Shown here: one piece after another, positions 39,657 through 63,257 of the stretch
How the letters are laid out: the number at the start of each line of letters is the position of its first letter
Position numbering within the stretch: the first letter of the stretch is position 1
Translations under genes and position numbers: made by a program
The notes under the pieces: model-generated
The model's input: the letters and a program-made list of their open reading frames with translations, nothing else
Databases searched by the model: none
What the model was told of the DNA's origin: nothing
From: Leptasterias polaris
Taxonomy: Eukaryota; Echinodermata; Asteroidea; Forcipulatida; Asteriidae
DNA length: 64,000 bases
Direction of reading: 5' to 3'
NCBI GenBank assembly: GCA_037783415.1
Contig: JAZGTN010000009.1
Coordinates: 10,974,001 to 11,038,000, forward strand

Positions 39657-39803
39657 TCAGTTCCAGGCGACATCTGGTGGCGCCAATTGCTTGAAATCGA
39701 TCGAAGCGTAGGTGGTGGATTCTTCGGTCTGTATTGGCGGTTCGTTTACAGGATGACTTTTTAAATGGCCGACTTCCATGTATATTAGCCCTTCCTCGTC
39801 AAC
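39657..39803 (-). CDS. Terminal exon of a tyrosine-motif (ITIM/ITSM) receptor-like gene
   Basis: Acceptor CTTTTTTTTAACACTAG/GTTGACG; 48 codons and TGA. It encodes EEGLIYMEV, a spacer, then STTYASIDFKQLAPPDV and WN. LIYMEV fits the ITIM consensus (I/V/L/S)xYxx(L/V). TTYASI fits the ITSM consensus TxYxx(V/I). In vertebrate CEACAM, Siglec, SLAM and PD-1 type receptors such pairs recruit SH2-domain phosphatases or adaptors at the inner membrane face. The preceding exon (53520-53578) ends in phase 0, which this one needs. With the five upstream exons it completes a 139-residue tail. The gene family is unknown, because the ectodomain and membrane segment lie outside the window. An immunoglobulin-superfamily receptor is the best guess. 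The intron before it is 13.7 kb and filled with transposons. Confidence 0.8.
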   Translation of the reverse strand, partial: VDEEGLIYMEVGHLKSHPVNEPPIQTEESTTYASIDFKQLAPPDVAWN

Positions 39804-40228
39804 CTAGTGTTAAAAAAAAGAACAAGTTTCCATATTATTAATAATTTGTTCCCTTACTTCGTGAATATATACTTTTACTATATCTTATACCATGATTGAG
39901 AGCTAATTCTCTTTGCTCCATTCACCATTATGTGCAAGAAGTATTTTTGCTGTTTACCAAGCACACAGCAGTACAGTAATGAGATTTTACAAATGTGAAA
40001 ATTTCTGAGAATTGCTTGGGGGCCTGGGTTCACCCTTAATCATTCTACACCCAGAGCATAAACAATTCAGGAGGTTTTACTCAGTGCATCACTAGAAATA
40101 CAAAACTACAGGTTTAGAAACAATGCTGGGGTTCCTTCTTTCTCCCTTTGGTGAGTGCTTTACTTTCTGTTTCCAGTAAGGCTCAAGGAGATTTTGAGCA
40201 AAACTTGAATTCATCAGTCAAAGCTCCA

Positions 40229-40447
40229 TTAACCCTCCTACTGTTCGCAACATTTTCAAGTGAGTTGACCAACCATTTGAAACCATTCAACTGCCAAAGT
40301 TGTGTATGGTGGCACAACTGTGCACAGAACTAACTGTGTACTGTGTACATGCATTCCCTCATGGTATCATATTGCAAGGCTGGCATAGCATCTATCATTC
40401 AAAACCACAGTGAATGGTATTGAATGGTCAGACAGCAAGAGGGTTAA
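40229..40447. mobile_element. TTAA-type MITE, complete
   Basis: The ends TTAACCCTCCTACTGT and ACAGCAAGAGGGTTAA are near inverses and both carry TTAA. This fits piggyBac- or Kolobok-type insertion (inference). Related pieces lie at 33117-33268 and about 35105-35258. Confidence 0.8.
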
Positions 40448-42391
40448 AGAAAAAAACCACAAAAATACACATCCTTTTCGTCTGGCAACTAAAACCTGTT
40501 TATCTCCATGTAACTCCTTTTTCAAACAGTGGAGTTAATTGGATTATGCATAAACCAGTAGTGCTGCTGACTGCCCCAGGCAAATTAACTGCTCATCCAT
40601 TAAGTTTGTCAACTTCCAATACCTCAGGATTGCGCGACATTTACGTGTGCCACCATGTAGCTAGGGTGATGTTTGCGCGTGCGAATCCGTGCGACAGTTC
40701 CATGACTGCCTGATAAAGCCCATGCTTAGTAGACTGCTGCACTTGCGATATTCTACTTTGCAAGTATATTTACTGTGCGTATAATCGTAAGTGCGCTTGG
40801 TTAGAAGCAAAAATAGCATCTGGAACGTGTTGGTGAACTGACCAGAATTTAGCTCTCGATCATGAATATGTATGAGGTTATAGTATGTTGCAATCATTAC
40901 ATGGTAATAACCAACCTTTTGACACTCAATGCATCATGGGAAATGATTAAATTGTGAAAATACATGGGGGGTCCCCTCCCCGCCTGAAAGACATCACCAC
41001 GACTGACAACTGTCACAATACAAGATCTGCAGTTCGCCATCATTCGAGATGGCGTCAGCAACAAAACTGGTACTATGGATCAAAGCCATACATGTGCAGA
41101 CTTTCAGCAATGGCTCTGACTAGATCACTATACCAGTCTATTCTTTACCATTACAGCCATAGCCAGCAAGTCACTCAACTTGGACAAAGTCTTTCCAATC
41201 AAGCCTAACATTTTACAGTCACAAGAGGGCGCTTGTCTTGGGCACCGTTAACCAAAAGTGTTTATCCGACTGATTATTTATGTCCTTTGACAATCAAACG
41301 ATTTCCTGGGTGGGCTGATAACAATGTTGGCAGAGATTGATAGCTAATCACAACAACCATGATCTTATCAATATATCAACAAACGTGTGTGGCAAATTAC
41401 AAGTGGCTAGCTGGGTTTGTGGGTCGCATGCACTTCTACACAATTATTGCAGAAAGCCCATGAAATTAAGTAAACAAAAAGAAAAAATACTATTTTGTTT
41501 TCTTCTTCTGTATTTGCAAGACGGACTCTTACTTTGAAGTTGCAATTTTTCATCCAAAACAGAATAATTTGACTTTACACAATTTGGGTTGAAGTTCACT
41601 CACACCCGCTCGGTAATTACACACAAAACAACTCTGAAACTAAAGTCGACACTTTGAAAACAATTTGTTCAAGCTATATTTGCAAAGTTGCACAAAGTCC
41701 AGTGTTTAGAATATAATAGTTTTGTTTTGCCGATTGTGAATTCAAAGGTCATATTCCAATTGCAGTCTATGAGATTGTCACCAGCTGCTCCTGGTGCATG
41801 CTGATACCAGGTGATTTTGGAAAGACCTTGCTGGGGCGCTCGTCAGGGGCACCGTTAACCAGAAGTAAAAAAAAAAATGTAACTCTTGTTGTATTTTTCA
41901 ACACAATTTAGCCTTTGACTGTGATGTTTGAATGTTTTTAATCAACCGATAACAATTTTATTTCAGACCACATTTTGGCTTTCTGAAAGTCTGCAATATT
42001 ATATATTGAGAATGTCATTCGAAGATCATGCATGCCTTTAATGTGGGGAATAACCGTATCTTCTCTGGGTTTTTTTAAATCTAGGCTTACTTCTTATGCT
42101 TTTGTAGATTGCTATTAGTCCCGTTCTGTCTTTGCTTGTTTTCAAGTTTACTGTTTTGTCCATGATTTTGACTGAGCCCCATTTTGTTTTCACTCAGGAG
42201 ACCACAATGGAAATAGGTCTTGGACTTTCTTGTGCTATCCTCGGCAAACAGATTTATGTCTATTTTGTATGCATTTGCATGTATGAATGGAAGCCAGTTT
42301 GCCATCGAACACAATTCTTCACAATTTCCAGAAAGAGTGTCCAGCATAGAACTCAACTGTATTAAACAATGACAAAACAACAAACCAGTTT
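40448..42391. other. No supported gene
   Basis: Short motifs around AGAGGGCGCTTGTC and GGGGCGCTCGTCAGGGGCAC, each followed by CACCGTTAACCA, recur at about 41222 and 41836 and suggest an old repeat pair. Open frames up to 99 codons are not recognisable. Confidence 0.4.
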
Positions 42392-42475
42392 GCAAACTAG
42401 TCACGTATGTACCTTTGCCATACATCGTGTAGCATCCGGTCTGACCTTGCGCGTTGATGCTTTGTGTCAAAAACA

Positions 42476-43394
42476 TGTAACCCGGAAAAATGGATCACTT
42501 GAATAAAACTAAATAAAACTAAACACTGGGGAAACTCACTTCAGAAAAACTCAACTAATCTAGGGATCGAATAGGGTTAAGACGCGAGGAAATGCAAAAA
42601 GTAGGACAGGGACTCAAAATGTAGGTTTCTCAACAAGCAAAAAATTAAAAAATAACTTATTATTGATTATAAGGCGATGACCAAAAGCAAAACCAGTGAT
42701 CGAAGTACATCAATAAACCAAGTAAACTCTAAACCAAGACCATTATTAAACACTATTGTACTAAACCCCGAACAATGAAAAGAATTTATAGAAACCACTA
42801 AAAACAACAAATCAAAACACAGTGCCAAAGAAGGTTACAAAATTAAAATGGCTTTAAAACCTGTGTAAATAAAACAACAAGAAATACAATTGATCAAAAT
42901 ACAGTTCTTCAATCAAATTTAAGAAGAAACACTCAGTCTTAAAAATTAAATCCAAACTGAGTTTAAAACAAAAGATATTTCCAAAAATACAACTTTAGAA
43001 ATGAAATTCCAAACAAACACAGGAATATTATGGTTGACAAAATGAATAATAAAACAAAATTTAAGCTTACCGAGTCCATAGCAGTAAATACTTGAAACAG
43101 GCAAATCTTGAACATATGAAGTAAAAATCAAAGCTTGTGATGGGCGAACACATAAGTGTGGAGTGTTCCCCTTGCGCTGCCAGGCTGCTATCTGAAGTCA
43201 ATTACAGGGGTGACTAACCACACTACCAAGGATTATGCAAGAGGGTTCATTGTTTATTACAAAGGATTCCTAAGAAATTAACTAAGGGGGTGCTAGAAGA
43301 GCTTAGGGGGAAGTATAAACAGTGGAAGGGTAATAAAACTCTAACCTAGACACTTGGTCACCTATAGGACAAAGGTTTTTCTACACCTATTACA
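42476..43394 (-). mobile_element. Probable 3' LTR of a Ty3/Gypsy-type retroelement
   Basis: On the minus strand the 919-bp block starts TGTAATAGG and ends CCGGGTTACA, the TG..CA form of an LTR. A purine-rich AAGTAGTGGCGAG directly precedes it, as expected for the polypurine tract. A minus-strand AATAAA lies near 43252. The 5' LTR was not found, so the boundary is inferred from the motifs and from the insertion breakpoint at 42467/42468. Confidence 0.55.
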
Positions 43395-43504
43395 CTCGCC
43401 ACTACTTAAACCCATTGTTGTCCTCAACAATGTTAAAAAGTACAAAAATGAAAACTACAATGAATTTACAGCAAAAATTTAAAAAGAAATCAACTATACA
43501 AAAA

Positions 43505-44326
43505 TCAAGGCCAAAAATAACTTTGTCGGGCAAACCGCATAATCTCCCGAAACCCCATAATATTGTGTGAAACTTGCAGGTTGTGCAAAGTTTGCCACCT
43601 CAATGACTTGGGCAAAACTTCTAGGTACTGAGTGTTATCTCCACTGTCGGTCTGCTTATAGTAAAGCAACCCATCCTTCACGATCAGGCTCTCCCATACA
43701 CGCACCAGCCTCTTCAGTGCTCCTGGCTCCCTTTTCAGCTGATGAGGGCTAGGCTTTCTTTCTGCAGAAGATTTCAATTTCACGACTCTGGAGATGACTT
43801 TGTCTGTAAGTTGGGCTGACTTCACGTCAGGGGGAGGAGTTGGCAGGATTGCGTCCTCTACTGCTGGGGTCGAATCTACCTGCTGAAACGATGACGGACT
43901 ATAATAAACTGTTGTTGGTGTGGATTGGCCATCAAACTCTCGCCATTGCCTCTGGCAACTTCGGGGTACTTTACTGCACCAAACAGAACTTCTCCTCTGG
44001 CGCTGACGACCATCCATCTGCATCTGCAGTCTCAGCAACAGTTCTCCTTGTCGTTGCTGCTGTGCAACAATGTCTCCAAGGAGATCCTTCACCGTCTCTA
44101 GCAAGCTCCTCTCCTTAGCAGGCTCCTCCATCGACGGAACTGAGGGTCTTTCTGCTGGTTGTGGGTCAAAACCACACATCTGAAGGGTGGTCAATAATGG
44201 CTTAACCACTGGTTGAAGAATTTCATCGAAACAACCAAATCCAGGGGGAGGAGAGATGTATGGCGTCCCGTCTGGCAAAATTGTGGAACTCGGCCCTTCA
44301 ACCATAGTGAAATAAAATGCTTCCAA
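43505..44326 (-). pseudogene. Ty3/Gypsy polyprotein fragment with integrase zinc-binding start
   Basis: A 273-codon frame. The last ~70 residues (SLIVKDGLLYYKQ ... VLPKSLRWQTLH ... HNIMG ... RFARQSYFWP) match the first half of the H2C2 zinc-binding domain that opens retroviral-type integrases, including the paired histidines. The two cysteines and the catalytic core are missing, because a stop follows YFWP directly. The N-terminal ~200 residues contain a glutamine-rich helix (VAQQQRQGELLLRLQMQ) and a basic RQRQRRS stretch, not recognised as a reverse transcriptase or a CCHC nucleocapsid. It lies just upstream of the probable 3' LTR. I read it as an internally deleted element whose remaining parts have fused in frame. 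A domesticated protein is less likely. Confidence 0.6.
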
Positions 44327-44449
44327 AACTCTGGCACTGTGTTCGTAACCCTAAAACTAATGACCGTCCCTACTTTTTACAAAACCTGGCTAAGTTCTAA
44401 AGGAACATAAACCCTACCCGGATTTTTCCACCCCAAAAATGTAACCCTG

Positions 44450-44653
44450 GGTTTCCACTTGTTTTTGTCGACACATTTATGTAAATCTGTTTTATTCAAT
44501 GTGCTCTTATTTCTTTCTAAGCTACGTAATTTGTAATCTTTTTGGTTACTCTCTCTGTTTTTTGTTTTTGTTTGGTTTTTATGCGTCTCGGAATAAGTTT
44601 AGTCTTAGATAGATGGCGCTTTACAAGTTTTAATTATTATTATTATTATTATT
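44450..44653 (+). mobile_element. LINE/SINE 3' tail ending in (ATT)n
   Basis: ATGCGTCTCGGAATAAG...AGATAGATGGCGCTTTACAA followed by (ATT)n matches the 3' end of the SINE at 48451-48814. The tRNA-like head is absent. It may be a 5'-truncated LINE whose tail the SINE shares. It forms the right edge of the insertion in duplication copy 2. Confidence 0.5.
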
Positions 44654-46103
44654 AACAACGCGCGAATTATGTCAAAAATGCGAGAAAACTGGGCGCCCGC
44701 GCGCGGTCAAAATGCGTTTCGCGGGCTTTGGGTTTTCAAAAGTTTTTGAACGGACTAATCACCGAAAGGAAAGGAAAACAGGCGGGATAGATAACCTAAT
44801 GAATATTTATTACCCCCAATCGATCCCCCATTATCCAATCATCATTCTAGGTTAAGCGTTGCCTTCTATTAATACGGACGTAGATCGAACGTAGTACTTG
44901 ATTTTCTTGGACGCATTTCACGGTAAATAATCACCGTTTTTGTTTACTTTTTACCAAATCCCCATCCCAAATATCTTTAAAAATGTAAACAAAAATAAAA
45001 CAGAGATCGTATAAAAGTGCGCAAATCTACAAAAAACCCATTATAACTATATTGTTCAGGTTAATTCAGGAATGACGTTGGTTTTCGTTTTAGAGCTAAA
45101 CTTTTTTTAACGGTACAGTGTGTAAAACTCGTCAAGGTCATTGGGGCAAATTGTAATTTGACACCCAACACGATTCACGAGAAACGCGCTCTGAACGCGC
45201 AAAGCTGAACAGCGTGCCGTGAAACCTAGGTGTTTGACGGGTGCATTTGTTATGGGCAGGCTGGGTCGCTCGATCTTCACTCGTAGTATTGTGCCTGTGT
45301 AACCAAAGGATAAGGTTGAATAAAAAGGGGCATGCAGCTGCTTAATGCTTAACTATGGCCAAATAACTTTTACTGGTAATTCTAATGGAAGTATTTAGGG
45401 CCTAAACCAGGATTAAACTAACAGTGAAATGCAGACCTAGTTTTTATTTTTATTTTCACAAAACAACAATTTTTCATGAAAATATCTTCATTTTCACAAG
45501 TGTATAATATGATTAAATTGTATCTTAATCTTCAGCCTATTTATAAGCTGCAACATTTTTGAGAATCAAATTCAATGTTTTCTGGGGCTTTTTATACGTC
45601 AAAGATTGTACAAAACATACGTATAAATTTCTTCTTTTAATAAAACTGCACCATTGTATGCATTTTTTGTATAAAATTATTTCTGTATTCGCTTCGGCGT
45701 GAAGTATTAACCAGGCTTATAGACCTATATATAGTATTAAAAAACTATCTATGTATAAATTAAACATGAAGCGCCTATAGTAATTAGTATCATTTGTATT
45801 TGTCACCTTTTATTTGTTGAAACCCCTTATTATTTAATTCTCAAATGTCCACTCCAAGACCAACGAATGAATTAATGAATTATAACTCCCAATACTGTCA
45901 TTAAAAAATTCAATTCAATTCAATCTAACAGTAGTTAAACACCAGGCATGTGAAACATGATCGTACATGTCGTATGGGAGAATTGTAAATTGTAATTTAC
46001 TGTAGGTCTACTGTCAGTTTATGCAAGAAGGAATATTCATCTTATAATAATTTATTATTAATATCATATGTAATTTACAATAAATAGCCGACAATTACAA
46101 TAC

Positions 46104-46195
46104 CTGAAAGAATTTAGCCTCTCCACCATGGATTCATGGTGACCATGTCCACCTGTTTTCGTCACTAAGCGTTCCCACGCCATGTCTTCAATCAT
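46104..46195 (-). CDS. Candidate first coding exon, duplication copy 2
   Basis: It appears identical to 29166-29257, including the ATG and the GTATTG donor. Conservation here reflects the recent duplication as a whole and is not by itself proof of function. Confidence 0.25.
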
Positions 46196-46994
46196 GGAGG
46201 TTAGTGCACAAACACCATGCAGTCGAACGGTGCATGCCCACACAGCATGCAACGTGGCTTGGCTTCTTATCTTGAAGACGCCGTGTCAAGTTACACTACT
46301 CAAGTCTATGGGTATTTTGTGTGTGATCAGTTTACGATGTACAAACTGACTGGTGGTAAGCTAACGGAAATCTTCAAAAATCTGCAAGTTTTCTGCAGAA
46401 AAATTGACTAATAGCAATTCTAAACGATCTTGTTTACGTACAAAGTTACTATTTGGACAAGAAAGATGCTAGAAAATGGCATATTCATGAACAAATTTAC
46501 GACTGAAAAAAAAAGTTTAGCTCTGTTCTAGGACGTACAGGTTCGTTGTAAACATCCTCATTCATGACATTTTAGATTCCATATACCCCTCAAATTGCGC
46601 TTTTAAGAAAACCCAACAAATACTCAAAATATTCTCATAAAACGTAATTTTAGGACAAATATTTACCCATTTTAGGAACGACAGTTACATCGTTTAAAAA
46701 CCATAGGTTTTCAAAAATTAAAACACGAACGTAAACATCGAACGAGCCCCTACTAATGCATATTCATTAAAAGAGCCAAGGCTCCTCCTTCGCCCCCTCT
46801 ACACCGTCTTCTTATCGATGAGTCATGGCTTTGTTTTCTTAGAACTAAAATTGCATATGCATGAGCAGATAATTACCGCGTCATATGACGTTTTTTTCGC
46901 GCGTGCGCGCATAAGAATCCCAGGGGAAAACATAGTGTGCTTCAAAAATATGAAATATTAGTAGGCAAAAGATCTGATCGTATCAGTTTTGATT

Positions 46995-47363
46995 AAATAA
47001 TAATAATAATAATAGTGGCTTCTTATATAGCGCTCAGGTCTGTCACTCAGTGACGCTCATGGCGCTTCAACATTATTACCCCTGGTCACTGGGCCATTTT
47101 TGTGTCATTCCTTTAACCATCTCAGCTCCCTGGGGAGTATACAGCCTGTGCTGCCAAATATGTAGCGCATCAAGCTAAGTCAATCACAAGAACCATCTCT
47201 GCCCTCACAGGTACCCATTTACTCCTGGGTGATGAGAAGCAATTATAGTTAAGTGTCTTGCTCAAGGACACAAGTGTCACGACCGGGACTCGAACCCACA
47301 CTCTGCTGATCAGAAACACCAGAGCTTGGATCCGGTGCTCTTATCCGCTCGGCCACGACACGC
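46995..47363 (-). mobile_element. SINE, tRNA-Leu-derived, full length
   Basis: The minus strand begins GCGTGTCGTGGCCGAGCGG, continues to GGGTTCGAGTCCCGGTCGTG, and ends in (TTA)n. These are the A and B boxes of a tRNA-Leu-like RNA polymerase III promoter, followed by a ~280-bp body. It is a close relative of 48451-48814. Confidence 0.85.
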
Positions 47364-48098
47364 TACACGAAATGCTTCAGTTGTCTAACGAGGCTAAAAA
47401 TGCCGACTTATTGAAACATTTTTTTTTAGGGAGGGGGGGGAGTTACATGGTCACCGCAGGAGTTGCTACATCCTTGATTGTACAGAGTTATTGATAAGAA
47501 TGGGCAAAGGGGTGTCTGCATGGCCTTTGAAGACCCCATTTTATTTCGAATACTGTTTTTTATCTGTCACTTAAATCAAATGCACTTTATACCAAATGCA
47601 CTTACACTGTATACCACACGCCAACAGTGCTGTAAAATAAACACTTTACATACACAATGAAAACAATGGTATTTAAGTGAAATTGAATCTTTGACCTCAA
47701 ATACAAGTGATTGTGGACTGCTTGAATGTTTAGGGGTGTCATTTGTTATTTGTTCCTTAATTCCCCGTGACCCCAAATACAAGATTGAAGCTGTCATGTG
47801 CATTCCAGTCATATGACAAGCATGACTGAAGTTCCTCTTTCTGTTTCATAGTTCATGCCTCACACACAAAAACACCCCCTTTTTAATATTATGTTTAGGA
47901 AGTTCCTCTCCAAACTGTGGGAATTTTATATTTCCTCAAAAGGTGATGGACTTTAAATGAGTTTGTTTTCTCACATTTGTCACGTTTGTTGTAAGAACAA
48001 CGGAAGGGAGAAGCTCTTTTTTTTCCTTCAAATAAATAAAAGCGTGTTAATTGGATTTGGGTTTATTTTTCTACAAAACTTATGTTGTGACATCTCCT
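47364..48098. other. No supported gene
   Basis: AT-rich sequence with short homopolymers (for example GGGAGGGGGGGGAG near 47430). No splice-flanked exon or repeat was recognised. Confidence 0.4.
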
Positions 48099-48411: not shown

Positions 48412-48450
48412 GATTTTTTCTCTCTCATATTTGTTTGGTCATGTTTGCTT

Positions 48451-48814: not shown

Positions 48815-48872
48815 CAATAGAAGGGATACACTCAAATGTTTTAAAACAATTCAAAACATGTTACTTGGATAG

Positions 48873-49491: not shown

Positions 49492-49586
49492 ATTTATAAT
49501 TTGTTTTTTACCCTTACACCGATGTGTGTTAAGCACTGTATACTCAGTACTTTCCCGAGTTCTGTGAAAAAAATCCACAGGCAAAT

Positions 49587-49658
49587 CACTCGGGTGGGAT
49601 TCGAGCCCACGACCGTTGCATTGATAGAGCAGATGTCTTACCACTAGACCACCGAGCT
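49587..49658 (-). mobile_element. tRNA-like sequence, probably a SINE head
   Basis: On the minus strand it has a plausible acceptor stem (AGCTCGG with CCGAGTG, imperfect at the outer two pairs), a D arm GGTCTAGTGGTAAGAC and a T arm GTGGGCTCGAATCCCAC. The anticodon arm is irregular. It sits in a longer repeat (about 49500-49730), so I treat it as tRNA-derived and not as a working tRNA gene. Confidence 0.5.
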
Positions 49659-53519: not shown

Positions 53520-53578
53520 CGTTCTTCCAGAAGGAGATTGACATTGTTCGAGATTTGCATAATCATCTTCTCCATCAT
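53520..53578 (-). CDS. Tail exon 5: DDYANL motif
   Basis: Acceptor TTTTTTTTTGTCCTCAG/ATGATGG; donor GAACG/GTAAGT; 59 nt, entering in phase 1 and leaving in phase 0. With the G from the exon at 59468-59536 it reads DDGEDDYANLEQCQSPSGRT. YANL is a YxxL motif, and YAN also fits the GRB2 SH2 preference pYxN (family knowledge). The phase change to 0 matches the terminal exon at 39657-39803. Intron lengths are 5.9 kb upstream and 13.7 kb downstream. Confidence 0.75.
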
Positions 53579-54550: not shown

Positions 54551-54564
54551 ATAATGAAGAATAT

Positions 54565-54848: not shown

Positions 54849-54891
54849 TGGTGAACGAAGATGTCTAGTATCCATCTGCTTTGAGGTAAAT

Positions 54892-55063
54892 AGACCTTAT
54901 GCGTTGACATCACCAAGCCGCCATCTTAGAGGTAAACTGATGATGAAACAATGGAAACGCACAGATTTGTATGCGCGGATCACAGGCCATGGCCAATGAA
55001 CATCTTCCTTTTGACCTCTAGGCGAGGGCGCCCTACTCAAATGACGTCATGTGTATAAGGTCT
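54892..55063. mobile_element. MITE carrying TGACGTCA, second of an inverted pair
   Basis: AGACCTTATGCGTTGACATC at the left; TGACGTCATGTGTATAAGG at the right. It pairs with 54379-54550 over about 170 bp as a large inverted repeat. Confidence 0.8.
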
Positions 55064-55479
55064 ATTATGCAACATGCCATTTTAGTTGTATGGTAAGCTT
55101 CAGCTTTCCCATTGGTTGATCCAGGGATGAGATTTGCCAAATGTTTCAATTTCTAAAAACTGCTTTTGGGCTTGGGTGATCCCCCTGGTTATAGACCAAG
55201 AATCTAACAGATGTTACAAACACCGACTGTGTGAACAACCAGAAATTCAAAACTACAGGTTTGGACACACTGTGGACTATTCCTATCTCCATTTGGTGAC
55301 TGCTTTACATTCTTTCAAGAAATGTGAATGCTCAAGGAGGTTTTGAGAAAGTCCTGAAATCAGGAAAAACCATGATTGAGAAACTACATAAGTGTTGAAC
55401 TTAATTAATTTGATGTACAAGCACGGTATTGATACTCTTATGTCCGCAGCGTTTTTCTGTATTGATTTATTTATTCTGG

Positions 55480-55790
55480 AAGTGAAACCAAGGATCTCAG
55501 AAAAGTAAACTTAACCGCTACACTAGCCAAGAACCCCATGGAGAGAAGACAAGGAGGATTCAGTTTGAGATGTGGGAGGAAAACCCACACAATCTTCATA
55601 GTGCTCCCCCCTCCACAGCGGGATTCGAACCGAGGTCCTAGTGACGAGGAAAGATACCACTACGGCAACCGGACAGCTGAACTTTGGACTGGTGCAATAA
55701 ACAGGAATCGAACCCACACTTTGATGACACCAGAATCTGAGCTTGGTGCATTAGACCACTCAGCCATAACACGACAACAAATAGATGAAA
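55480..55790 (-). mobile_element. Two SINE-type tRNA-derived pieces back to back
   Basis: GCGGGATTCGAACCGAGGTC (about 55618) and CAGGAATCGAACCCACACTT (about 55702) are inverted B boxes. AGACCACTCAGCCATAACAC is an inverted A box of the Leu-like family. The first piece is the inverse of the SINE at 58655-58962. Confidence 0.65.
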
Positions 55791-56294
55791 TAGGGTACTA
55801 ACTTTTAGTGACAGGTGTCTTTGCAGAATCAAGATTCATTACTTCATAGCAAGAAGAACCAGCTGAGAATGAAAGACACACATACCACTTTTTTGTTACA
55901 TCTTACATCTTACATTCTTAACCCTTTACAGACCAGCAGCTTGTACTGAAATGTCCATAGCGGCCGCAAATGGTTGAAAAATCTGACCTACATGTACTTC
56001 CTCTCAACCAAAGAAGGTCAAAGTAAAGTTCATGACCTAAATTGACATTTTCCAATGTTTCCCACTTTAAAATAGTGTCCATCTTTTTAAAACAAAACCA
56101 AATATCTTTTTTATACTGGGTTTTTTTCCCCAGACACTTTTGCAAGGCAAATTTTTTTCAAAAAACCAACAATAAAACCATGTTTGGGCGTATGGTGATG
56201 TTTATACAGAAATGAATGGTCTCTTAAAAGTTAAGACCATGGGAAATCTCTCTTATGAGTAAGTGTGCTTCCGAAAGAAACCGATGGACTCAAC

Positions 56295-56488
56295 GTTTCG
56301 GACAATATTGACCCTTTGCAGATGCAGAATGCATCTCTGCAAAATACGCATCTACAATTTCCATCCTTTTGGGAGTCAATTCCTTTATGTACATTTTGAC
56401 TCCCAAAATGGCGGACAGGATAGGCGCGTGAAGTTCAAAGTGCATCATGCAAGGAGTCTGAGGACGGAGAGAGTATACTGTCCGAAAC
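56295..56488. mobile_element. MITE, GTTTCGGACA ends
   Basis: GTTTCGGACAATATTGACC at the left and TATACTGTCCGAAAC at the right. An inner inverted pair is TTTTGGGAGTCAA / TTGACTCCCAAAA. Confidence 0.7.
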
Positions 56489-56631
56489 ATTGTAGTCTAA
56501 CAGCTCCTTTCACAACCACACATACTCAAAAGATAGATTTGCCTACATGGTGTCACCGCAAAACTCTTCCTTTAATGTCTTTCCACCATGCAAACCTTCC
56601 GGTCTCATCTATATATTCTTAACCCATGCTT

Positions 56632-57186
56632 CACTACAGAACTGCCTCACTGCAGAACTGCCTCACTGCAGAACTGCCTCACTGCAGAACTGCCTCACTG
56701 CAGAACTGCCTCACTGCAGTACTGCCTCACTGCAGTACTGCCTCACTGCAGTACTGCCTCACTGCAGTACTGCCTCACTGCAGTACTGCCTCACTGCAGT
56801 ACTGCCTCACTGCAGAACTGCCTCACTGCAGAACTGCCTCACCGCAGAACTGCCTCACCGCAGAACTGCCTCACCGCAGAACTGCCTCACCGCAGAACTG
56901 CCTCACCGCAGAACTGCCTCACCGCAGAACTGCCTCACCGCAGAACTGCCTCACCGCAGAACTGCCTCACCGCAGAACTGCCTCACCGCAGAACTGCCTC
57001 ACCGCAGAACTGCCTCACCGCAGAACTGCCTCACCGCAGAACTGCCTCACCGCAGAACTGCCTCACCGCAGAACTGCCTCACCGCAGAACTGCCTCACCG
57101 CAGAACTGCCTCACCGCAGAACTGCCTCACTGCAGAACTGCCTCACTGCAGAACTGCCTCACTACAGAACTGCCTCACTACAGAGC
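56632..57186. repeat. 16-bp minisatellite, 35 units, with ordered variants
   Basis: The unit is CTGCCTCACTGCAGAA and its variants. In order there are 1 CTACAGA, 4 CTGCAGA, 6 CTGCAGT, 2 CTGCAGA, 18 CCGCAGA, 2 CTGCAGA and 2 CTACAGA units. Three forward frames remain open through it because the unit has no stop. These are not genes. Confidence 0.93.
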
Positions 57187-57568
57187 ACAAAAACACATTC
57201 TCGTTACTAGCAATACGAGATGGGAGACATGGCAAAATTTATCACATTGAAAAGAAATTACATGCTCTTTCCAAAGTAATAAAGTTGTTTGAATATTCTC
57301 GCAAGGCAGTAAGTCAATTAATAATATACCACACACACAAAGATCCTTGTCATTTGATTGGTGGAACACACATCATGTGCCTTCCTTTATTTTGTCATGT
57401 GAACTGCCGTGATGCGCCAAAGTTTAATACAGGAGTCCTTGCACGCCTTGCGTACTTCGCTTCCAATATAACCATTTCCTGCTCGTTTGTTCAAATGAGG
57501 CAAAGTCTCGATGCGTAGGACAAGGTTTGTTGCTACATAAAGTCATCTACATGGTTCAGAATGTTTCA

Positions 57569-57934
57569 TTTAAAGGGTCTGTATACGTTTGGTAATGACT
57601 CTGAAAATTAATGGCAATAAAAACTTACATGGTAAGAAGTACAGCAGTGTTGGATAGTATAATGCATTTTGAGAAACTTTTCACTTTGAAGTACTACGGT
57701 TATGGAAAAATATATCACTTTTTATCCCATAAAAAATTGGATCAGAGAAGCGTTACAGCCGTAACGCTTCTCAGATTGTGTATTCCTATAGGGAATATCC
57801 GCTCCGGTTTTTCGGTGATATCTCAAAAACGCGACCACCTTTTGAAGTGAAATTTTCACAGGTTAGTTGTACATTTATTTAGGATTAATACAATCAGTAG
57901 GCTCCAATTACCAAACGTATACAGCACCTTTAAA
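57569..57934. mobile_element. MITE, TTTAAAGGGTCTGTATACG ends
   Basis: TTTAAAGGGTCTGTATACGT at the left; ACGTATACAGCACCTTTAAA at the right. Interior AGAAGCGTTACAGCCGTAAC forms a small hairpin. Confidence 0.8.
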
Positions 57935-58654
57935 TAACATTTTCAGAGTGTGGGCTTGATGAGTTTCTGTGTTTGTTGTGTGTTTATTGTGAAACAAATT
58001 TCAAATGACAAAGATCTATGCAAGTTACATGTATATACATGTATACAAATACTGAAAGCATTTCAGTCATGCGTTGTCACAGGAAATAATCACTGAAATC
58101 ACCGAAATTCAGCTTTTCCATTTTACTCGCCTTCGCCTCATGAAATGGAAAAGCCCAAATTTCGCCTCAAGATTATATTCTGCAGTCAAATACATATATT
58201 ATTTATGCAACAATAATGTGACTAGTCTGGCAAACAGGCATTTGTGCACATTCCAATGGAAAGCTTTTTAGTCATCAATATATAGCTTTTCTCATGAGAT
58301 TCATGAATACTGCGCATTTGATTGGGCTTTGGATTTACAAATGTATGCGTGCTGCTGTTGGATCGGTCTACCAACTCCAACGCAAAACCAAAAGTAAGTT
58401 TAGGCGAGTGCAGTGGTAAGTTTGAGCAAGTGCAAAATAGAATGGTAGGAGTCACGAGACGGGGCAGAGTTAGAGATGAAGATTTGAAAAAGGCAACAGG
58501 GGTGAAAGATCTATTGCAAGAAGTAACAGTGGGGGTTCAAAGGTCAAATTCCGATTTAGTATATAGTGCTTTACACATCGGTGTATGGGTAAAGCCAAAT
58601 AATTTATAGACTCATCTGATTTTTAAGCTCATGGTATGCTTTGGGCATTCTGGT

Positions 58655-58898
58655 TTGCAAAGTGGTATCTTTCCTCGCCTTCCACCACTAGGACCTCATT
58701 TCAAATCCCACCAGGGACACTATGTGGATTGAGTTTTCAGTCCACAACTGATTAAGTGAGTCTTCCCTGGAATAATTCTCTTGGGTTTTCCTGCCACATC
58801 TACACTGAAACTTCCGTCTTGGCCTTCTCTCTATGGGGTTCTTGGCTAATACAGTGATTAAGTTTGCTTTTCTGAGATCATTGGCTTCACAAACAGAA

Positions 58899-58961
<63 letters not shown>

Positions 58962-58962
58962 A
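58655..58962 (+). mobile_element. SINE with (AATA)n tail
   Basis: CTAGGACCTCATTTCAAATC is a degraded B box. The body TTCTCTTGGGTTTTCCTGCC...TCTATGGGGTTCTTGGC leads to about 15 repeats of AATA (58903-58962). The piece at about 55490-55620 is an inverted relative. Confidence 0.65.
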
Positions 58963-59152
58963 AGCTGCAGATGTAGAGTATCAATACTATAAGAATCGAG
59001 ACATGCCTGTATGGCAAAATTAATAAGACCAACTTGCATGTAACTTCTCAGGGTTTTCTCAAATTCTCCCAGAGCCTTCAAATTTTCTTGAAAGAAATAA
59101 AACAGTCACTAAAGAGAATTCTTGGAAGTAATAGATGAAATGCTACAAATCT

Positions 59153-59377
59153 GGGCCCAATTTCATGGCTCTGCTTACCGCCGAGTTCTGCGCTTGCGAT
59201 CACCCACTCTGCTTACAGAGCAATTGCCGAATTTCTGCGCTAGCTGTGTATGCGTAGAATGCCTAGTAACGTGGATGCTGCAAGCACACAAGGAAAAATT
59301 GACGTAAGCGCAGAATTCCCTGCTTCCGTAAGCGCCGATTCTTTGCTGACGGTGAGCAGAGACATGAAATTGGGCCC
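59153..59377. mobile_element. MITE, GGGCCCAATTTCAT ends
   Basis: GGGCCCAATTTCATGGCTCT at the left; GAGACATGAAATTGGGCCC at the right. It lies 90 bp downstream of tail exon 4. Confidence 0.8.
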
Positions 59378-59467
59378 TGAAGTAATAAATGAAATGCTGC
59401 AAAACTGAAGCTCTAATTCCGAGAAGGAATCAACTACAATAGCTGGAGCGTGATCCCCACAACTTAC

Positions 59468-59536
59468 CACCAATCTTTGACTTCTGCTTCTGTGGAGGGA
59501 GTTTGACATCGTCATATTCTGACTCTCCGTCGTCGA
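59468..59536 (-). CDS. Tail exon 4: SEYDDV motif
   Basis: Acceptor TTTTGGGTGATTCTAG/TCGACG; donor GGTG/GTAAGT; 69 nt, phase 1-1. It reads (F)DDGESEYDDVKLPPQK followed by QKSKIG. SEYDDV fits the ITIM pattern, and YDxV is a preferred NCK SH2 site in known families. Acidic residues before the tyrosine are typical of kinase substrates. The exon can be skipped without changing frame. Confidence 0.75.
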
Positions 59537-59594
59537 CTAGAATCACCCAAAACAACAAAGTCAATATTTATAGACATGCAACCTGTTAAATGTT

Positions 59595-60240
59595 TTAAAG
59601 GTAACGTCATACATTGGTAATGACCCCCAACAAGTTTTGAGGAATTTCTATCCGAAAGCAAACTTGTTATAAAGATGTTAATGGTAGTAAGCATCCTGTG
59701 AAATTCTTTCGTTGATTAGAAATCAACAAAAATATGTCTACAAATTTTAACCTCCAAAAGTCACCTCATGGTGAGTTTGAAAATTACAATTTCTGTGGTT
59801 TGTGAATGCTGCGGCCAGAGATGCAGTTTTTGGCATTCAGCTGAAACTTTCACAGGTAATAATAATAATAATTGTGGTGCTTATATAGCGCTTTCCATCG
59901 TATCAACAATCTCAAAGCGCTTTACAATATTATTCCCCCGTTCATCAGGCCATGGGACCACGCGGCAGCCGATTATCAGCGCTCATCGATCCTCTACCCT
60001 CACAGGTACCCATTTATACCCCTGGGTGAAGAGAAGCAATTATAGCAAAGTGTCTTGCTCAAGGACACAAGCGTCTTGACCGGGACTCGAACCCACACCC
60101 CGATGACTAAACCACCAGAACTTGAATCCGATGCTCTTAACCACTCGGCCATGACACCCCAGGTGACTTTCATTGTAACTGTCTTGATATTTTGGCCTTA
60201 TAAATCAGCATTACGTTGACAATGTATGACCCTACTTTAA
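59595..60240. mobile_element. MITE interrupted by a SINE
   Basis: TTAAAGGTAACGTCATACAT at the left; ATGTATGACCCTACTTTAA at the right. The element is split by the SINE at 59857-60159. Confidence 0.7.
59857..60159 (-). mobile_element. SINE, tRNA-Leu-derived, nested in a MITE
   Basis: The minus strand begins GGTGTCATGGCCGAGTGG and has GGGTTCGAGTCCCGG as B box. It ends in (ATT)n. CAGGT occurs on both sides (ACAGGTAAT and CCAGGTGAC), a possible short target duplication. Confidence 0.8.
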
Positions 60241-60819
60241 GTGTTTTAAAAACATATTATTGGGTTTTTCCTCCTTCATCTTAAACTGAGCATTTCTTCA
60301 TCGTCTCTACACACTCATCTCCAGGCCGAGGGTTCACCATTTGAGTCACTTTAATTTTTTTTTGCGATTTTTACAATTTCATTGTTGTTTTAGAATTCTT
60401 AGAATACTGAGGTTAATTACTTAGATAAAGTGTGTTTAGATTTGGCTTTTTAAATTGTATCTCTTTGAAGCGCCTTGAGCGTCTTTTTAAAAATTATTTA
60501 TTCTACATCCAACATATCATTTTCAGGCACCATTTAAAAGCAAAGGTGGACTTTGGCACTATTATAAGTTGTTATTATTATTCGAATGTTTTTAAAACAA
60601 GAGAGAAATGATTTGCTTTCATTCAACAGGAGATTAAACTCAGATGAGTAGATAATTATGAAATATCTATCACCAAGTTAGTAAAACTAAAGCACCATAG
60701 ATAAAGTTATCTCTTACATGCTTGTTTACTTACTCAAGACACAGCTTTGTCCAAAGCTCAATAATAATAAAAAACCTGAAGAATTTTAATGAAGAATGAG
60801 AAACATTTGAAATACGTAC

Positions 60820-60861
60820 ATTTTGACGGTGGCACATATTTCTTTGGCTTCTTGGCACCAC
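60820..60861 (-). CDS. Tail exon 3: KKYVPP motif
   Basis: Acceptor CCTTGGCTTCAG/GTGGTG; donor AAAAT/GTACGT; 42 nt, phase 1-1. It reads (G)GAKKPKKYVPPSK. YVPP fits pYxxP, the CRK-type SH2 site (family knowledge). It is strongly basic, as is usual near the inner membrane face. Small size and symmetrical phase make it a natural cassette exon. Confidence 0.65.
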
Positions 60862-60921
60862 CTGAAGCCAAGGATAAAAAAATGAGATAACAAAATAAAC
60901 AAATAGTTTATCTTAAAAAAA

Positions 60922-60962
60922 TAATAATAATAAAATAAATATATATATATATATATATATAA
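60922..60962. repeat. (AAT)n / (AT)n microsatellite
   Basis: ATAATAATAATAA is followed by about 12 AT dinucleotides. Confidence 0.85.
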
Positions 60963-61291
60963 AAATAAGGGATTTGAGGCAGATTTCCGCCCAGGTAGTA
61001 GCTAATAAGCAGGACAGTTCTTTTCAGAACTACTCCGCGGCAGTAGAATAATTAGCAAGACAAGTTCTCAAAGAACAAAAATCTACCTAGCAAGTAAATA
61101 TACACATGGTGTTACCGCAAACCAAATATACAAAACATTAATAAAATAAACAAAGACCTTTGAAGGGAAAATAAACAAATGATAGTATTAAATAAATTAT
61201 TTAAAATAACAATAAATAAATAAACAAATAAATAAATAAACAAGTAAACAATAAATATAGCTTTTAACAAAAACCAATCAGCCAGACTAAC

Positions 61292-61345
61292 CTGAAGCCT
61301 TCTTGTTTACTGCAGCATACACATCATTGGTCACGTCAGGCAGGT
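61292..61345 (-). CDS. Tail exon 2: DVYAAV motif
   Basis: Acceptor TACATTTTATTAG/ACCTGC; donor TTCAG/GTTAGT; 54 nt, phase 1-1. It reads (N)LPDVTNDVYAAVNKKAS. The YAAVNKK context resembles the decayed modules at 10.8-13.8 kb. Each flanking exon also carries a single tyrosine motif, which supports a modular receptor tail. Confidence 0.75.
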
Positions 61346-61403
61346 CTAATAAAATGTAATCCCAGGTTTAAAATAATTTTAGTGTTTAAGTGCTACATAC
61401 AAA

Positions 61404-61776
61404 GTGTGGACCTGAGAACAAAAGAGGTCCACATAATGTAGTGACTTGAAACACCATGTGGACTTACACACGTCCACACAGTGTTTTTTACAGTGTTGAG
61501 GAATATGGTTTTTCTTTCAAAGTGTACAGAACTAAGGAATGTCCACAGAGTGACTGCAACAGAACTGTTTGTTTTCTTGGGGGATTGTAAATGTGGACCG
61601 GAGAACAAAAGAGGTCCACATAATGTAGTGACTTGAAACACCATGTGGACTTACACACGTCCACACATTTGTTTTTGCAGTGTTGAAGAATAGGATTTTC
61701 CTTCAGAGTGTACAGAACAAAGACATGTCCACAGAGTGACTGCAAGACAGAGCTGTGTTTTCTTTTCCAGGTTTTG
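61404..61776. repeat. ~187-bp direct duplication
   Basis: GAGAACAAAAGAGGTCCACA and CACCATGTGGACTTACACAC recur 187 bp apart. The second copy continues to about 61776 with few changes. Minus-strand frames here are shared by-products. Confidence 0.85.
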
Positions 61777-62059
61777 TTTATAGATTTGGCAGTCCAAGGT
61801 CCCCCTGTGGTAGACGCTCCTCGGCTGAAGTAATTGTTTCATCACTGGCGATGCACACACGCCACTAGAACTGTACAAACATGTGCTACAGATGCTGCAT
61901 GACACTGTTTGTACGTATCCTTCATGTGCTTAGCACTCCAGCATGGCAAACCTCCCGCATCACAAGAGAAATGTGATGTCAGTGAGAAGGGTTTACACAT
62001 AGTAGTAGCCCACCATGTTTTATTTTATGACTAGGGCTGGGACGTATAACCAGTTAACC

Positions 62060-62240
62060 ATTTAAATAGTGCTCAAATCTGTCACTCAGTGATGGTCATG
62101 GTCCTCAAACATTCGGTATTTTACCTGTGGCTGAGCTATGTTTTTGAAGTATGAGACCCTTTTCCTTTTTATAGCACCACGTAATGGTTTACAAGGCTCT
62201 TTGGCGCAATATGCAGCAAATCAACATTTCCAAATTCCCT
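62060..62240 (-). mobile_element. Degraded SINE body
   Basis: TGCTCAAATCTGTCACTCAG...TGGTCATGGTCCTCAAACAT resembles CGCTCAGGTCTGTCACTCAG in the SINE at 46995-47363. The head is missing. Confidence 0.45.
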
Positions 62241-62309
62241 TAACCCATCGTGTCTTCAATTGTGTTCTGGGAATCTTGGGAATCCTTTAAAGTTTGTTTT
62301 TTCCCTTTT

Positions 62310-62327
62310 GGGGGGGGGGGGGGGGGG
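62310..62327. repeat. Poly-G tract
   Basis: A run of about 18 G after CCCTTTT. Confidence 0.85.
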
Positions 62328-62654
62328 TAGAGAACTTCTGTACAAGAGAGAAAGAATGTCTTGAGAACATTTAAGGGAGGAGGCCTCCCTGTCCAGGCAG
62401 GGTATATAGCCATGTGACTTAAAAAACAAGCAACAACAAATAAACAAAACAAACAATACAATCAACAAACAAAACCAAGTAACCATAAAAACATATCGAC
62501 AAGTAAAACGAGGAAACAGTCAACTAAAGAAATCAACTCTGAAACAAACTTACAACATGCACCCACCTCTCCCCTTCCTCTTCATGAGGGGCACAGAACT
62601 ACTGTACCGAACAAAATTCATGAATCCTGCGGTGATCATTGTTACGGCGTACTA

Positions 62655-62760
62655 CTGTAAAATCAGTACAGTTGGTAGAGCACCATCACATTAAACCGGA
62701 GGTCGTTGGTTCAAATCCCGCAATTGTAAGTTTTTCTTTGTTCAACCCCTAATCATTTAA
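62655..62760 (+). mobile_element. tRNA-Asn-like SINE, copy 1
   Basis: CAGTTGGTAGAGCACCATCA and GGAGGTCGTTGGTTCAAATC are A-box and B-box like. TTTTTCTTTGTTCAACCCC follows. Stem pairing is too poor for a working tRNA. Confidence 0.55.
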
Positions 62761-62952
62761 AATTTTACCCAGTCAGTTTTCCTTGTGGTTTATAACTTGA
62801 TAATTGAAATAAAAAAAGTTGCACCCCCTTATGGTGATTCGCTGGTCATTGCTTCCCAGGTTGTATCGTAAAATTGGGTGTGATACAACTAATGGTAGTA
62901 TAGCTTCTGACTGGCATCCCTGAACAAAGATATTGGAAAAATATGGAGACCG

Positions 62953-63075
62953 CCAGCACAGGGCTAGATACATGTAGCTCAATTGGTAGAGCACCGGCAC
63001 GTTAATCCGGAGGTTGTTAGTTCAATTCCCGTTCTAATCTATTTTTATTTTTTTTTAACCCCCAAATCACTGCAA
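62953..63075 (+). mobile_element. tRNA-Asn-like SINE, copy 2
   Basis: GTAGCTCAATTGGTAGAGC has a good D arm. The anticodon position is GTT in CACGTTAATC, with CCGG stems. GTTCAATTCCCG is the B box. Acceptor and T stems do not pair well, and the flanks match copy 1. Confidence 0.55.
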
Positions 63076-63206
63076 TTTTAGTTACTTCTTACAGGAGTAA
63101 AATCAGAGGGTAGCGGGAGTAAGAAAGGCAGAAAGTAAAGACAGAGGGATCAACAATATAACTTAAGAAAAGAAGAAATTTTGAACTTAAGAAACATAAA
63201 TCTTAC

Positions 63207-63257
63207 TTGTTGGAGGCGGTTTACTCGGCTTCTCCTTCTTTACTATGGCATAGGTGT
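63207..63257 (-). CDS. Tail exon 1 in this window: TYAIV motif
   Basis: Acceptor AATTTTTTGGCAG/ACACCTA; donor ACAA/GTAAGA; 51 nt, phase 1-1. It reads TYAIVKKEKPSKPPP plus T. The proline-rich PSKPPP could be an SH3 ligand (inference). The first codon is split with an exon outside the window. This is the most upstream exon visible. A membrane segment and ectodomain should lie beyond 64,000 on the minus strand. Confidence 0.75.

Follow-up and report, generated by a model that had tools for sequence, protein, structure and literature searches.

A hidden sea-star gene predicted to encode a receptor with a seven-tyrosine tail, and its sequence signature of pairing with neighbouring receptor tyrosine kinases

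The 64,000-nucleotide stretch of Leptasterias polaris DNA analysed here (the window) carries six short exons on its minus strand (Table 1), for which a sequence-only reading had claimed a hidden host gene ending in a seven-tyrosine receptor tail. When the window sequence was read, the coordinates of all six proved to be exact: AG acceptors precede all six exons and GT donors follow the first five, the phases (1,1,1,1,1,0) are compatible on joining, the frame closes with TGA, and the joined product is 139 residues long with exactly seven tyrosines, as had been described. The tyrosine motifs are, in order, YAIV, YAAV, YVPP, YDDV, YANL, YMEV and YASI, with gaps of 24, 17, 13, 22, 21 and 24 residues from tyrosine to tyrosine, the last pair forming a C-terminal module within the sixth exon. 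An Asp codon is divided between exon 1, which opens with its second and third bases, and an exon beyond position 64,000, which closes with its first, and the possible polyadenylation signal past the stop is the sole AATAAA or ATTAAA in the 3 kb downstream. The motif of exon 4 has the YDxV form and also reads as SxYxxV. No listed six-frame ORF of 100 aa or more corresponds to the six exons.

Table 1. Tail exons and possible 3' signal in the window
Feature	Position	Strand	Length and phase	Motif	Remarks
Tail exon 1	63207..63257	-	51 nt, phase 1-1	DTYAIV	AG/GT borders; P0001 907-923
Tail exon 2	61292..61345	-	54 nt, phase 1-1	DVYAAV	P0001 925-940
Tail exon 3	60820..60861	-	42 nt, phase 1-1	KKYVPP	P0001 944-958
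Tail exon 4	59468..59536	-	69 nt, phase 1-1	SEYDDV	P0001 962-980
Tail exon 5	53520..53578	-	59 nt, phase 1-0	DDYANL	P0001 981-1001
Tail exon 6	39657..39803	-	147 nt including TGA	LIYMEV, TTYASI	P0001 1001-1046, 87%
Possible polyadenylation signal	39591..39596	-		ATTAAA	~60 nt past stop; short-consensus match only

Splice sites were scored with an approximate human matrix, and the scores vary, with three of the six acceptors falling only in the top 16-24% of the AG sites on that strand. Because this support is mixed, splice-site scoring was dropped as proof of the exons, and the proof is sought in homology. A 1,048-residue Ig and FN3 protein that has a hydrophobic membrane segment matches the 139 joined residues at its C-terminus (79%, E 2.8e-58). 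When the window was searched by tblastn with P0001, an independent protein, the six best matches (E 2e-20 to 0.035) were the six exons, in colinear order on the minus strand, and the next match stood at E 0.51; the six exons are therefore not a product of chance. All six exons are recovered in the window by the tail of P0001 and again by that of P0002, and the tail of the more distant P0003 recovers exon 6 and, with weak matches, three more, while three reversed tails, used as a control, gave a best E of 0.21. All 17 named close relatives are sea-star proteins. Tail identity to two other proteins is 80-82% with every tyrosine kept, and in an alignment of four tails, Asterias and Patiria among them, none of the seven tyrosines varies. 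Frame-breaking changes in relatives, on whose absence the sequence-only reading had staked its gene, were not seen, P0001 and P0002 aligning with the tail from end to end. From these comparisons of sequence we take the gene that contains the six exons to be real. No other long stretch of the tail is as well conserved as the ITIM/ITSM-like module at its C-terminus, in which Patiria has the same spacing of 24 residues, and last exons weakly related to exon 6 show this spacing too (C9:4522253, C9:14892367, C9:15139313 and C125:806831). A protein search with the 139 residues alone gave no match at E up to 10 among 13 candidates, because only those of 0.55-1.75 times the query length were considered; Pfam and PDB searches with the tail alone gave no match.

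Upstream of position 64,000, the same strand carries what had been expected there, an Ig ectodomain and a predicted TM segment: past the window, the same genome holds start, V-set, Ig, FN3 and membrane exons. The joined model, built from phase-1 splice sites only, has 21 exons and a 1,072-residue open frame with a single terminal stop; it spans 86.7 kb with many repeats, and the acceptor of its exon c1 scores poorly. The modelled ectodomain comprises five Ig exons (seven with an optional pair) and one FN3, and its first Ig domain matches the V-set in P0001. The six exons in the window encode the cytoplasmic tail of a predicted type I membrane receptor with an Ig/FN3 ectodomain, and the claim of a hidden gene with a seven-tyrosine receptor tail is supported by these upstream exons together with the invariant tyrosines.

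The tail gene lies head to head with a receptor tyrosine kinase gene at a distance of ~20 kb, and another full kinase gene lies 0.7 Mb from it; on C9 the tail gene occupies the minus strand and the kinases the plus strand. The exons of the head-to-head gene encode VAVKTLK, HRDLATRN and DFGLARDV and include a TM exon, and those of the copy at 11.78 Mb encode VAVKTLK, HRDLAARN and DFG. A search of the locus found no start exon for the head-to-head gene, which may therefore lack a part, or its first exon may have gone unrecognised. The kinase catalytic-loop exon occurs on C9 in 16 copies (10.03 to 12.14 Mb) and the tail's last exon in one; the detailed comparison covered two of the kinase copies, and the catalytic motifs were checked in the same two. 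One tail gene against many kinases is unlike the classical one-to-one pair.

With gap columns set aside, exon DNA identity between the tail gene and the head-to-head kinase gene is 375/378 for the V-set (99.2%, three gap columns), 326/327 for Ig2 (99.7%), 311/327 for Ig3, 291/318 for Ig4, 308/336 for Ig5, 260/285 for FN3 and 191/273 for the juxtamembrane exon, and similarity is lost by the membrane-spanning exon. The corresponding dS values are 0.018 for V, 0.013 for Ig2, 0.07-0.17 from Ig3 to FN3 and ~1.0 for the juxtamembrane exon. In Ig4, 20 of 105 residues differ and dN is 0.093 against a dS of 0.071, so that parts of the ectodomain do diverge. The kinase copy at C9:11.78-11.80 Mb is 91-99% identical to the tail gene in nine compared ectodomain exons, shares with it a 4,962-column alignment block at 96.7%, introns included, and is similar through the juxtamembrane exon (93.4%, dS 0.017); its TM exon has only 37.5% amino-acid identity and is followed by a kinase domain with catalytic motifs. 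For both kinase genes together, the ectodomain exons show 91-99.7% DNA identity to the tail gene, with an outermost dS of ~0.01-0.04. Recent duplication or conversion in a tandem family could also account for ectodomain identity of this kind, with no functional pairing behind it.

The pattern recurs between a tail-type and a kinase-type protein of Asterias amurensis, which agree at 84-97% per 75-residue window through residue 825 and at 71%, 36% and then 16-31% beyond it. In Patiria, the FN3 of the tail-type protein P0003 shares 91% identity with the kinase-type FN3 of the same species and 50% with that of the Asterias tail-type; over the short TM region the relation is reversed (33% and 54%), and the juxtamembrane region groups by species, not by type. 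Acanthaster is consistent for the ectodomain; its one non-kinase model is without the tail. In trees of the last Ig and FN3 regions the tail- and kinase-types are intermixed within species, as would be expected of homogenised ectodomains; in the Ig-region tree 4 of the 10 rows fill less than half of the columns, and the forks within the Patiria group are open. Among the best 60 of 125 matches, the closest solved chains for the kinase domain of the Asterias partner P0005 are FGFR1/2 and RET, and one top-scoring chain was deposited as EGFR. The Patiria paralogue P0004 has 31 cytoplasmic tyrosines, and of its 17 YEE sites the majority sit in 24-residue repeats (fourteen of the 16 steps between sites are of 24 and two of 42). 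Derivation of this repeat from a copied exon was considered and rejected: the unit comprises whole codons, but its length is not that of exon 4 (69 nt).

The tail gene and the kinase genes show the sequence signature of paired receptors, judged against features drawn from excerpts of PMC5112662, PMC5701461 and PMC12447643. Vertebrate paired immune receptors (CEACAM, SIGLEC-11/16, SIRP, KIR, CD300) likewise join matched Ig ectodomains to contrasting signalling parts and lie in one gene cluster in opposite orientation, with the distal ligand domains homogenised and the rest diverged. Here the ectodomains are similar, most of all at the presumed ligand end (V-set and Ig2), a seven-tyrosine tail stands against a tyrosine kinase domain, and the genes are clustered and oppositely oriented, with an apparent conversion tract (dS 0.013-0.018 in V/Ig2 against ~1.0 in the juxtamembrane exon). 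The system differs from the vertebrate ones in belonging to a sea star, in setting one tail gene against many kinases, and in that the partner has a tyrosine kinase domain of its own rather than an ITAM or an ITAM adaptor. The two partner genes compared are like other receptor tyrosine kinases in their catalytic Lys, HRD and DFG and in having the kinase domain after one TM, and differ from them in that their V-set/Ig/FN3 ectodomain is common to a non-kinase receptor.

By the consensus sequences for ITIM, (I/V/L/S)xYxx(L/V/I), and ITSM, TxYxx(V/I), SEYDDV and LIYMEV fit the former and TTYASI the latter, and the other four of the seven motifs fit neither. An ITAM reading (YxxL/I x6-12 YxxL/I) was rejected on the tyrosine gaps, the pair separated by 13 being YVPP and YDDV. 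PD-1 is alike in having membrane-distal ITIM-like and then ITSM-like tyrosines, 25 apart (Y223 and Y248, according to excerpts of PMC7078208) against 24 here; it differs in that the tail receptor has five further tyrosine motifs, and the likeness considered is that of the tail motifs. By comparison with PD-1 only, the spacing of 24 would be compatible with recruitment of SHP-1/SHP-2. It is a weak argument, because in cells PD-1 needs no more than its ITSM tyrosine, and SHP-2 may link one receptor to another (excerpts of PMC7078208). An immune-type receptor is suggested by resemblance only, through the V-set/Ig ectodomain, the ITIM/ITSM-like C-terminal pair and the paired arrangement with kinases.

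We think it rather probable that the tail receptor sees the same ligand as the kinases, and that its phosphorylated tail recruits SH2 proteins and tempers or redirects the kinase signal. The near identity of the outermost domains suggests that both would bind one ligand and would likely form a matched signalling pair. The tail tyrosines might be phosphorylated by the partner kinases or by Src-type kinases, whereby SH2 proteins could be recruited; LIYMEV and TTYASI, 24 residues apart, might engage a tandem-SH2 phosphatase of the SHP-2 kind, which would make the receptor chiefly a brake on the kinases, and YDDV might bind Nck and so provide a coupling to actin. Motifs 1-4 each occupy one frame-neutral exon, so that splicing could drop single docking sites. 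The direction of a brake is suggested by the motifs. That four of the seven fit neither consensus counts against a brake, as does the use of multi-tyrosine tails as activating scaffolds.

An activating scaffold, that is, a nephrin- or adaptor-like docking platform that has its ligand in common with the kinases and boosts their signal via Nck, Crk- and PLC-type SH2 proteins, seems to us unlikely, yet it is the alternative that fares best. YVPP has the YxxP form, a Crk-type docking form, and the abundant tyrosines and YEE sites of P0004 look like multiplied docking sites. YDDV has the YDxV form, through which nephrin binds Nck (excerpts of PMC12203975). Against a scaffold stands the conservation of the ITIM/ITSM-like module, which exceeds that of every other long stretch of the tail; Patiria and the four diverged last exons of the same genome keep its spacing.

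Less probable still is an ordinary adhesion receptor of the nephrin/SYG-2 type, whose likeness to the kinases would stem from gene conversion not under selection, and from recent duplication, in a tandem array. Nephrin, SYG-2 and SNS are alike in their Ig domains followed by one FN3, single TM and tyrosine-rich tail with YDxV; several relatives are annotated as nephrin-like or syg-2-like, solved-structure matches include SYG-2, RPTP-delta and contactin-2, and the family is large and clustered. Human nephrin has eight C2-type Ig domains, an FN3 and three YDxV motifs (excerpts of PMC12203975), whereas the tail-gene model lacks that arrangement, having five or seven Ig domains with an N-terminal V-set, and one YDxV. 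The contrast of tail and kinase with matched ectodomains recurs, moreover, in Asterias and Patiria, and drift after one duplication would not maintain it; the Acanthaster ectodomain is consistent with the matched pattern, though the tail is missing from the non-kinase model. That the gene is a relic, no longer working but with exons still legible, might be imagined from its long span, many repeats and some weak splice scores, and is extremely improbable given 1,072 codons open over 21 exons to one terminal stop and the kept identity and tyrosines of the tail.

Beyond the preferred reading of a ligand-sharing receptor that tempers or redirects the kinases, we can tentatively picture, while leaning somewhat against it, a paired system of sea stars in which at least 16 tandem receptor tyrosine kinases would activate, a single PD-1-like receptor ending in ITIM/ITSM would be their ligand-matched checkpoint, and conversion would keep the ligand domains alike across Asterias, Patiria and Acanthaster, making this a candidate family for self/non-self recognition. 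Among the titles listed, literature searches showed no echinoderm receptors for echinoderm ITIM (twelve papers on cancer and three on other subjects); they gave only a Lepidoptera study for invertebrate paired immunoglobulin/tyrosine kinase receptors, and for sea star and nephrin no report of this tail/kinase receptor family in the listed titles or abstract starts, all of which is a thin basis for novelty. Echinoderm immune diversity has been attributed to other gene families, in a review whose excerpted text does not contain the word "tyrosine" (PMC13428168). As far as this limited search shows, paired activating and inhibitory receptors have been described from vertebrate immune cells. If our reading is true, a head-to-head echinoderm pair with homogenised ligand domains, and with kinases in the place of ITAM partners, would mean either that the design has more than one origin or that it is older and looser than has been assumed. 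The locus would offer a concrete, testable gene family for sea-star immunity and allorecognition, and an example of a gene that is invisible to open-frame searches and can be read exon by exon from raw sequence.

The six minus-strand exons that the sequence-only reading had assembled into a hidden host gene (tail exons 1-6) are confirmed at exactly the positions it gave, their borders being AG/GT, their phases compatible and the last of them ending in a stop. Together they encode 139 residues, and each of the seven tyrosines is followed at +3 by proline or a hydrophobic residue. None is covered by any listed ORF of at least 100 residues, as had been expected of exons that long-frame searches would miss. 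The tail alone found no match in Pfam or PDB, and at its own length it drew 13 candidates from the protein collection, not one of which reached E 10. Padding the query brought longer proteins into the scoring, and 449 candidates then gave a single match, P0001, a protein of 1,048 residues (E 2.8e-58), identical at 110 of 140 positions in an alignment that crosses all five exon junctions. The six best tblastn matches of P0001 in the window are the six tail exons, in order, and the seventh stands at E 0.51; reversed tails of P0001, P0002 and P0003, used as a control, reached a best E of only 0.21. Identity of the tail is 80% to P0001, 82% to P0002 of Asterias amurensis and 58% to P0003 of Patiria miniata, and the seven tyrosines are invariant across these aligned tails.

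The predicted ectodomain and membrane exons beyond position 64,000 were found on the same strand in the DNA adjoining the window (contig C9:10974001-11038000 of the 629.7-Mb assembly). Joined without the extra Ig pair, 21 exons of this tail gene encode 1,072 residues with no stop before the end; of the 1,027 residues that align with P0001, 791 are identical. The frame is also open when the pair is included. The model has eight cytoplasmic tyrosines, seven of them those of the window; its small-exon details are provisional, because only phase-1 borders were sought and the acceptor of one of them, c1, is weak. P0001, whose contig of 5,524 bases makes it look like a transcript, has V-set, C2/I-set Ig and one FN3 domain (Pfam) and, near residue 810 and ahead of the tail, a hydrophobic segment. 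Before the membrane, the juxtamembrane exon of the tail gene and the consensus of its relatives carry KRRRRA or a close variant (KRRGRA in A. rubens P0007), which we take to be a furin-type site, and the receptors may be cleaved there into two chains.

Exons of the tail gene and further places of its last-exon module (positions on contig C9 unless stated)
Feature	Position	Strand	Remark
Start exon	11100329	minus	like P0001 1-33, signal-peptide-like
V-set exon	11098023	minus	
Ig2 exon	11094841	minus	
Ig3 exon	11093696 (or ~11093708)	minus	
Extra Ig pair	11089247 and 11088531	minus	
Ig4 exon	11083922	minus	
Ig5 exon	11082505	minus	
FN3 exon	11081128	minus	
Juxtamembrane exon	C9:11064769-11064485	minus	
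TM exon	11062811	minus	
Six more small cytoplasmic exons	between TM exon and six window exons	minus	
Tail exons 1-6	window 63207-63257, 61292-61345, 60820-60861, 59468-59536, 53520-53578, 39657-39803	minus	
Two-tyrosine last-exon module, other places (L033-L036)	C9:4522253, C9:14892367, C9:15139313, C125:806831		3 of 4 nearly identical to each other

The surroundings of these exons are rich in repeats. A tRNA-family match (46.6 bits, window 49586-49658, minus strand), either a gene or a tRNA-derived repeat, lies in the intron that separates tail exon 5 from tail exon 6, and a dispersed repeat of ~107 bp (59594-59700), with at least some 40 relatives genome-wide, most at 79-86% identity, lies beside tail exon 4. 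Two plus-strand open frames of 714 residues (18286-20430 and 22411-24555), 4.1 kb apart, show no difference over 2,145 bases, within an exact repeat that continues for 553 bases on their left and 1,067 on their right; the first, on which the domain was tested, carries a Mutator-like transposase domain (PF20700, E 1.6e-44), and the pair is, judged by this identity, a recently duplicated transposon. A 7.6-kb G-rich satellite (102-7695; consensus GTGGAGGAGGA, GC skew ~0.8-0.9, all six frames open) precedes a 23-mer repeated perfectly 14.5 times (7713-8046), and two arrays of a related 42-bp unit (30146-30333 and 30837-31142) lie ~500 bp apart in opposite orientation. Beyond the left end of the window, a weak Ig-like match of another gene occurs at C9:10936330-10936734, plus strand (30% identity, E 1.6e-05).

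When residues 590-1048 of P0001 were used as query, and the 7,990 candidates sharing most words were scored, 19 proteins matched at E up to 1, of which 18 did so at 1.5e-54 or better and the nineteenth was a fish protein at E 0.11. The 18 comprise P0001 and 17 named relatives, all from genera of Asteroidea (10 Asterias amurensis, 2 A. rubens, 3 Patiria miniata and 2 Acanthaster planci). By these matches and the tail identities, the window is likely sea-star DNA, with Asterias its nearest named genus. Four (P0001-P0004) have the tyrosine tail; 13 (P0005-P0015, P0017 and P0018) have a tyrosine kinase domain in its place, P0017 being cut off inside that domain; P0016 ends ~21 residues past the membrane. 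Among solved structures the kinase domain of P0005 comes closest to FGFR and RET, if one chain deposited under the name EGFR is left aside. Residues 891-1516 of P0004 (Patiria miniata) hold 31 cytoplasmic tyrosines, 27 of them in Yxx(hydrophobic/P), with 17 YEE sites. Of the 16 intervals between these, fourteen measure 24 residues and two, into which a YVPP unit is inserted, measure 42; the tail is thus a natural array of likely docking sites for SH2 domains.

Head-to-head with the tail gene lies a plus-strand receptor tyrosine kinase gene, which runs from a V-set exon (11119887) through FN3, juxtamembrane and TM exons to kinase exons (to 11143937) with VAVK, HRD and DFG motifs; a start exon was looked for and not found. 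With gap columns set aside, exon DNA identity between the two genes is 375/378 for V, 326/327 for Ig2, 311/327 for Ig3, 291/318 for Ig4, 308/336 for Ig5, 260/285 for FN3 and 191/273 for the juxtamembrane exon, and dS in the same order is 0.018, 0.013, 0.11, 0.07, 0.14, 0.17 and ~1.0. The introns adjoining V and Ig2, where alignable, show 96.3-97.5% identity. This step in similarity is seen at synonymous sites and in introns as well and so cannot be put down to selection on the protein alone; a recent conversion or exchange involving the outer part can account for it.

A second kinase gene, the 11.78-Mb copy (plus strand, 11.779-11.800 Mb), lies 0.7 Mb from the tail gene and resembles it by 91-98.7% in nine of nine compared exons, including the juxtamembrane exon (93.4%, dS 0.017), and in a 4,962-column block of 96.7% identity, introns included, that reaches the edge of the compared DNA. 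The resemblance falls away at the TM exon (37.5% amino-acid identity), beyond which comes a kinase domain bearing its catalytic motifs. Of the two copies compared, the neighbour kinase is the nearer to the tail gene in Ig2 and the 11.78-Mb copy in the juxtamembrane exon, and such an exon-by-exon mosaic fits repeated conversion better than a single duplication. The kinase query had at least 131 matches in the genome (the best 125 of 551 candidates scored), and its catalytic-loop exon occurs in at least 16 places on C9 (10.03-12.14 Mb, all plus strand, 74-93% identity), each not necessarily a whole gene, with Ig exons of the family lying among them. Outside this main cluster, further and mostly more diverged kinase exons occur at C9:7.40-7.72 Mb and on contigs C169 and C59, which also carry Ig exons. 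Tail exon 6 was found in one place, the next best being four places at 48-50% identity (E 0.007 to 0.15); this search scored nine candidates, gave seven matches and missed tail exons 1-3 even at their own locus, so that "single copy" applies to the later exons only.

Tail-type and kinase-type proteins with matching ectodomains occur in Asterias and Patiria too. In A. amurensis, P0002 (tail) and P0005 (kinase) share 84-97% of their residues in each 75-residue window as far as residue 825, beyond which identity falls to 71%, 36% and 16-31%. No identical stretch exceeds 61 residues, so the two are separate copies, not one spliced gene. Both lie on contigs of one length (15,767,093), as do the Patiria proteins (28,030,815), and the genes within each species are therefore probably linked. 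The FN3 of Patiria P0003 (tail) is 91% identical to that of the kinase-type Patiria P0018 versus 50% to Asterias tail-type; over its TM region (~40 columns) the values are 33% and 54%. For P0004, the second Patiria tail-type, they are 78% versus 49% in FN3 and 36% versus 62% in the TM region. The Patiria juxtamembrane region groups by species, and trees of the Ig and FN3 regions united the tail types in none of 200 bootstrap trees. Two Acanthaster models, with FN3 84% identical, agree for the ectodomain; no Acanthaster tail is among the 18 close relatives. Between Asterias and Patiria, tails are conserved at 62% and kinases at 73%. Both the tail type and the kinase type thus appear to be of old origin, and the ectodomains appear to have been kept alike within each species.

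Motifs in the tail were named by the consensus forms of ITIM, ITSM and ITAM. Tail exons 1-5 carry one tyrosine motif apiece, and exons 1-4 are frame-neutral, so that splicing could drop a single site without other effect. Tail exon 6 carries LIYMEV and TTYASI, with tyrosines 24 residues apart; this spacing is kept in the Patiria tail and in the diverged last-exon modules at the four other genomic places, which follow the pattern L(I/V)Y..(L/I).H...HP.N.PPI.TE..T.YA.I. In PD-1, as described in PMC7078208, ITIM Y223 and ITSM Y248 are 25 apart, the tandem SH2 of SHP-2 forms a 1:1 complex with the doubly phosphorylated tail, and in cells the ITSM alone suffices. The YDDV of the tail is of the YDxV type to which Nck binds in nephrin (PMC12203975); nephrin is also among the automatic annotation names of the relatives, but its Ig count does not fit. 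For the paired CEACAM receptors of Xenopus, PMC5112662 describes conversion between opposite-orientation genes of one cluster that keeps ligand domains alike while the rest diverges. The tail gene and its neighbour show each of these sequence features; they differ in that the partner here is a receptor tyrosine kinase. The main rival interpretation is that the tail receptor would be a ligand-matched scaffold, amplifying the signal. The reading to which we commit, based on comparison of sequences, is that the tail receptor would serve as a ligand-matched brake on the kinase family.
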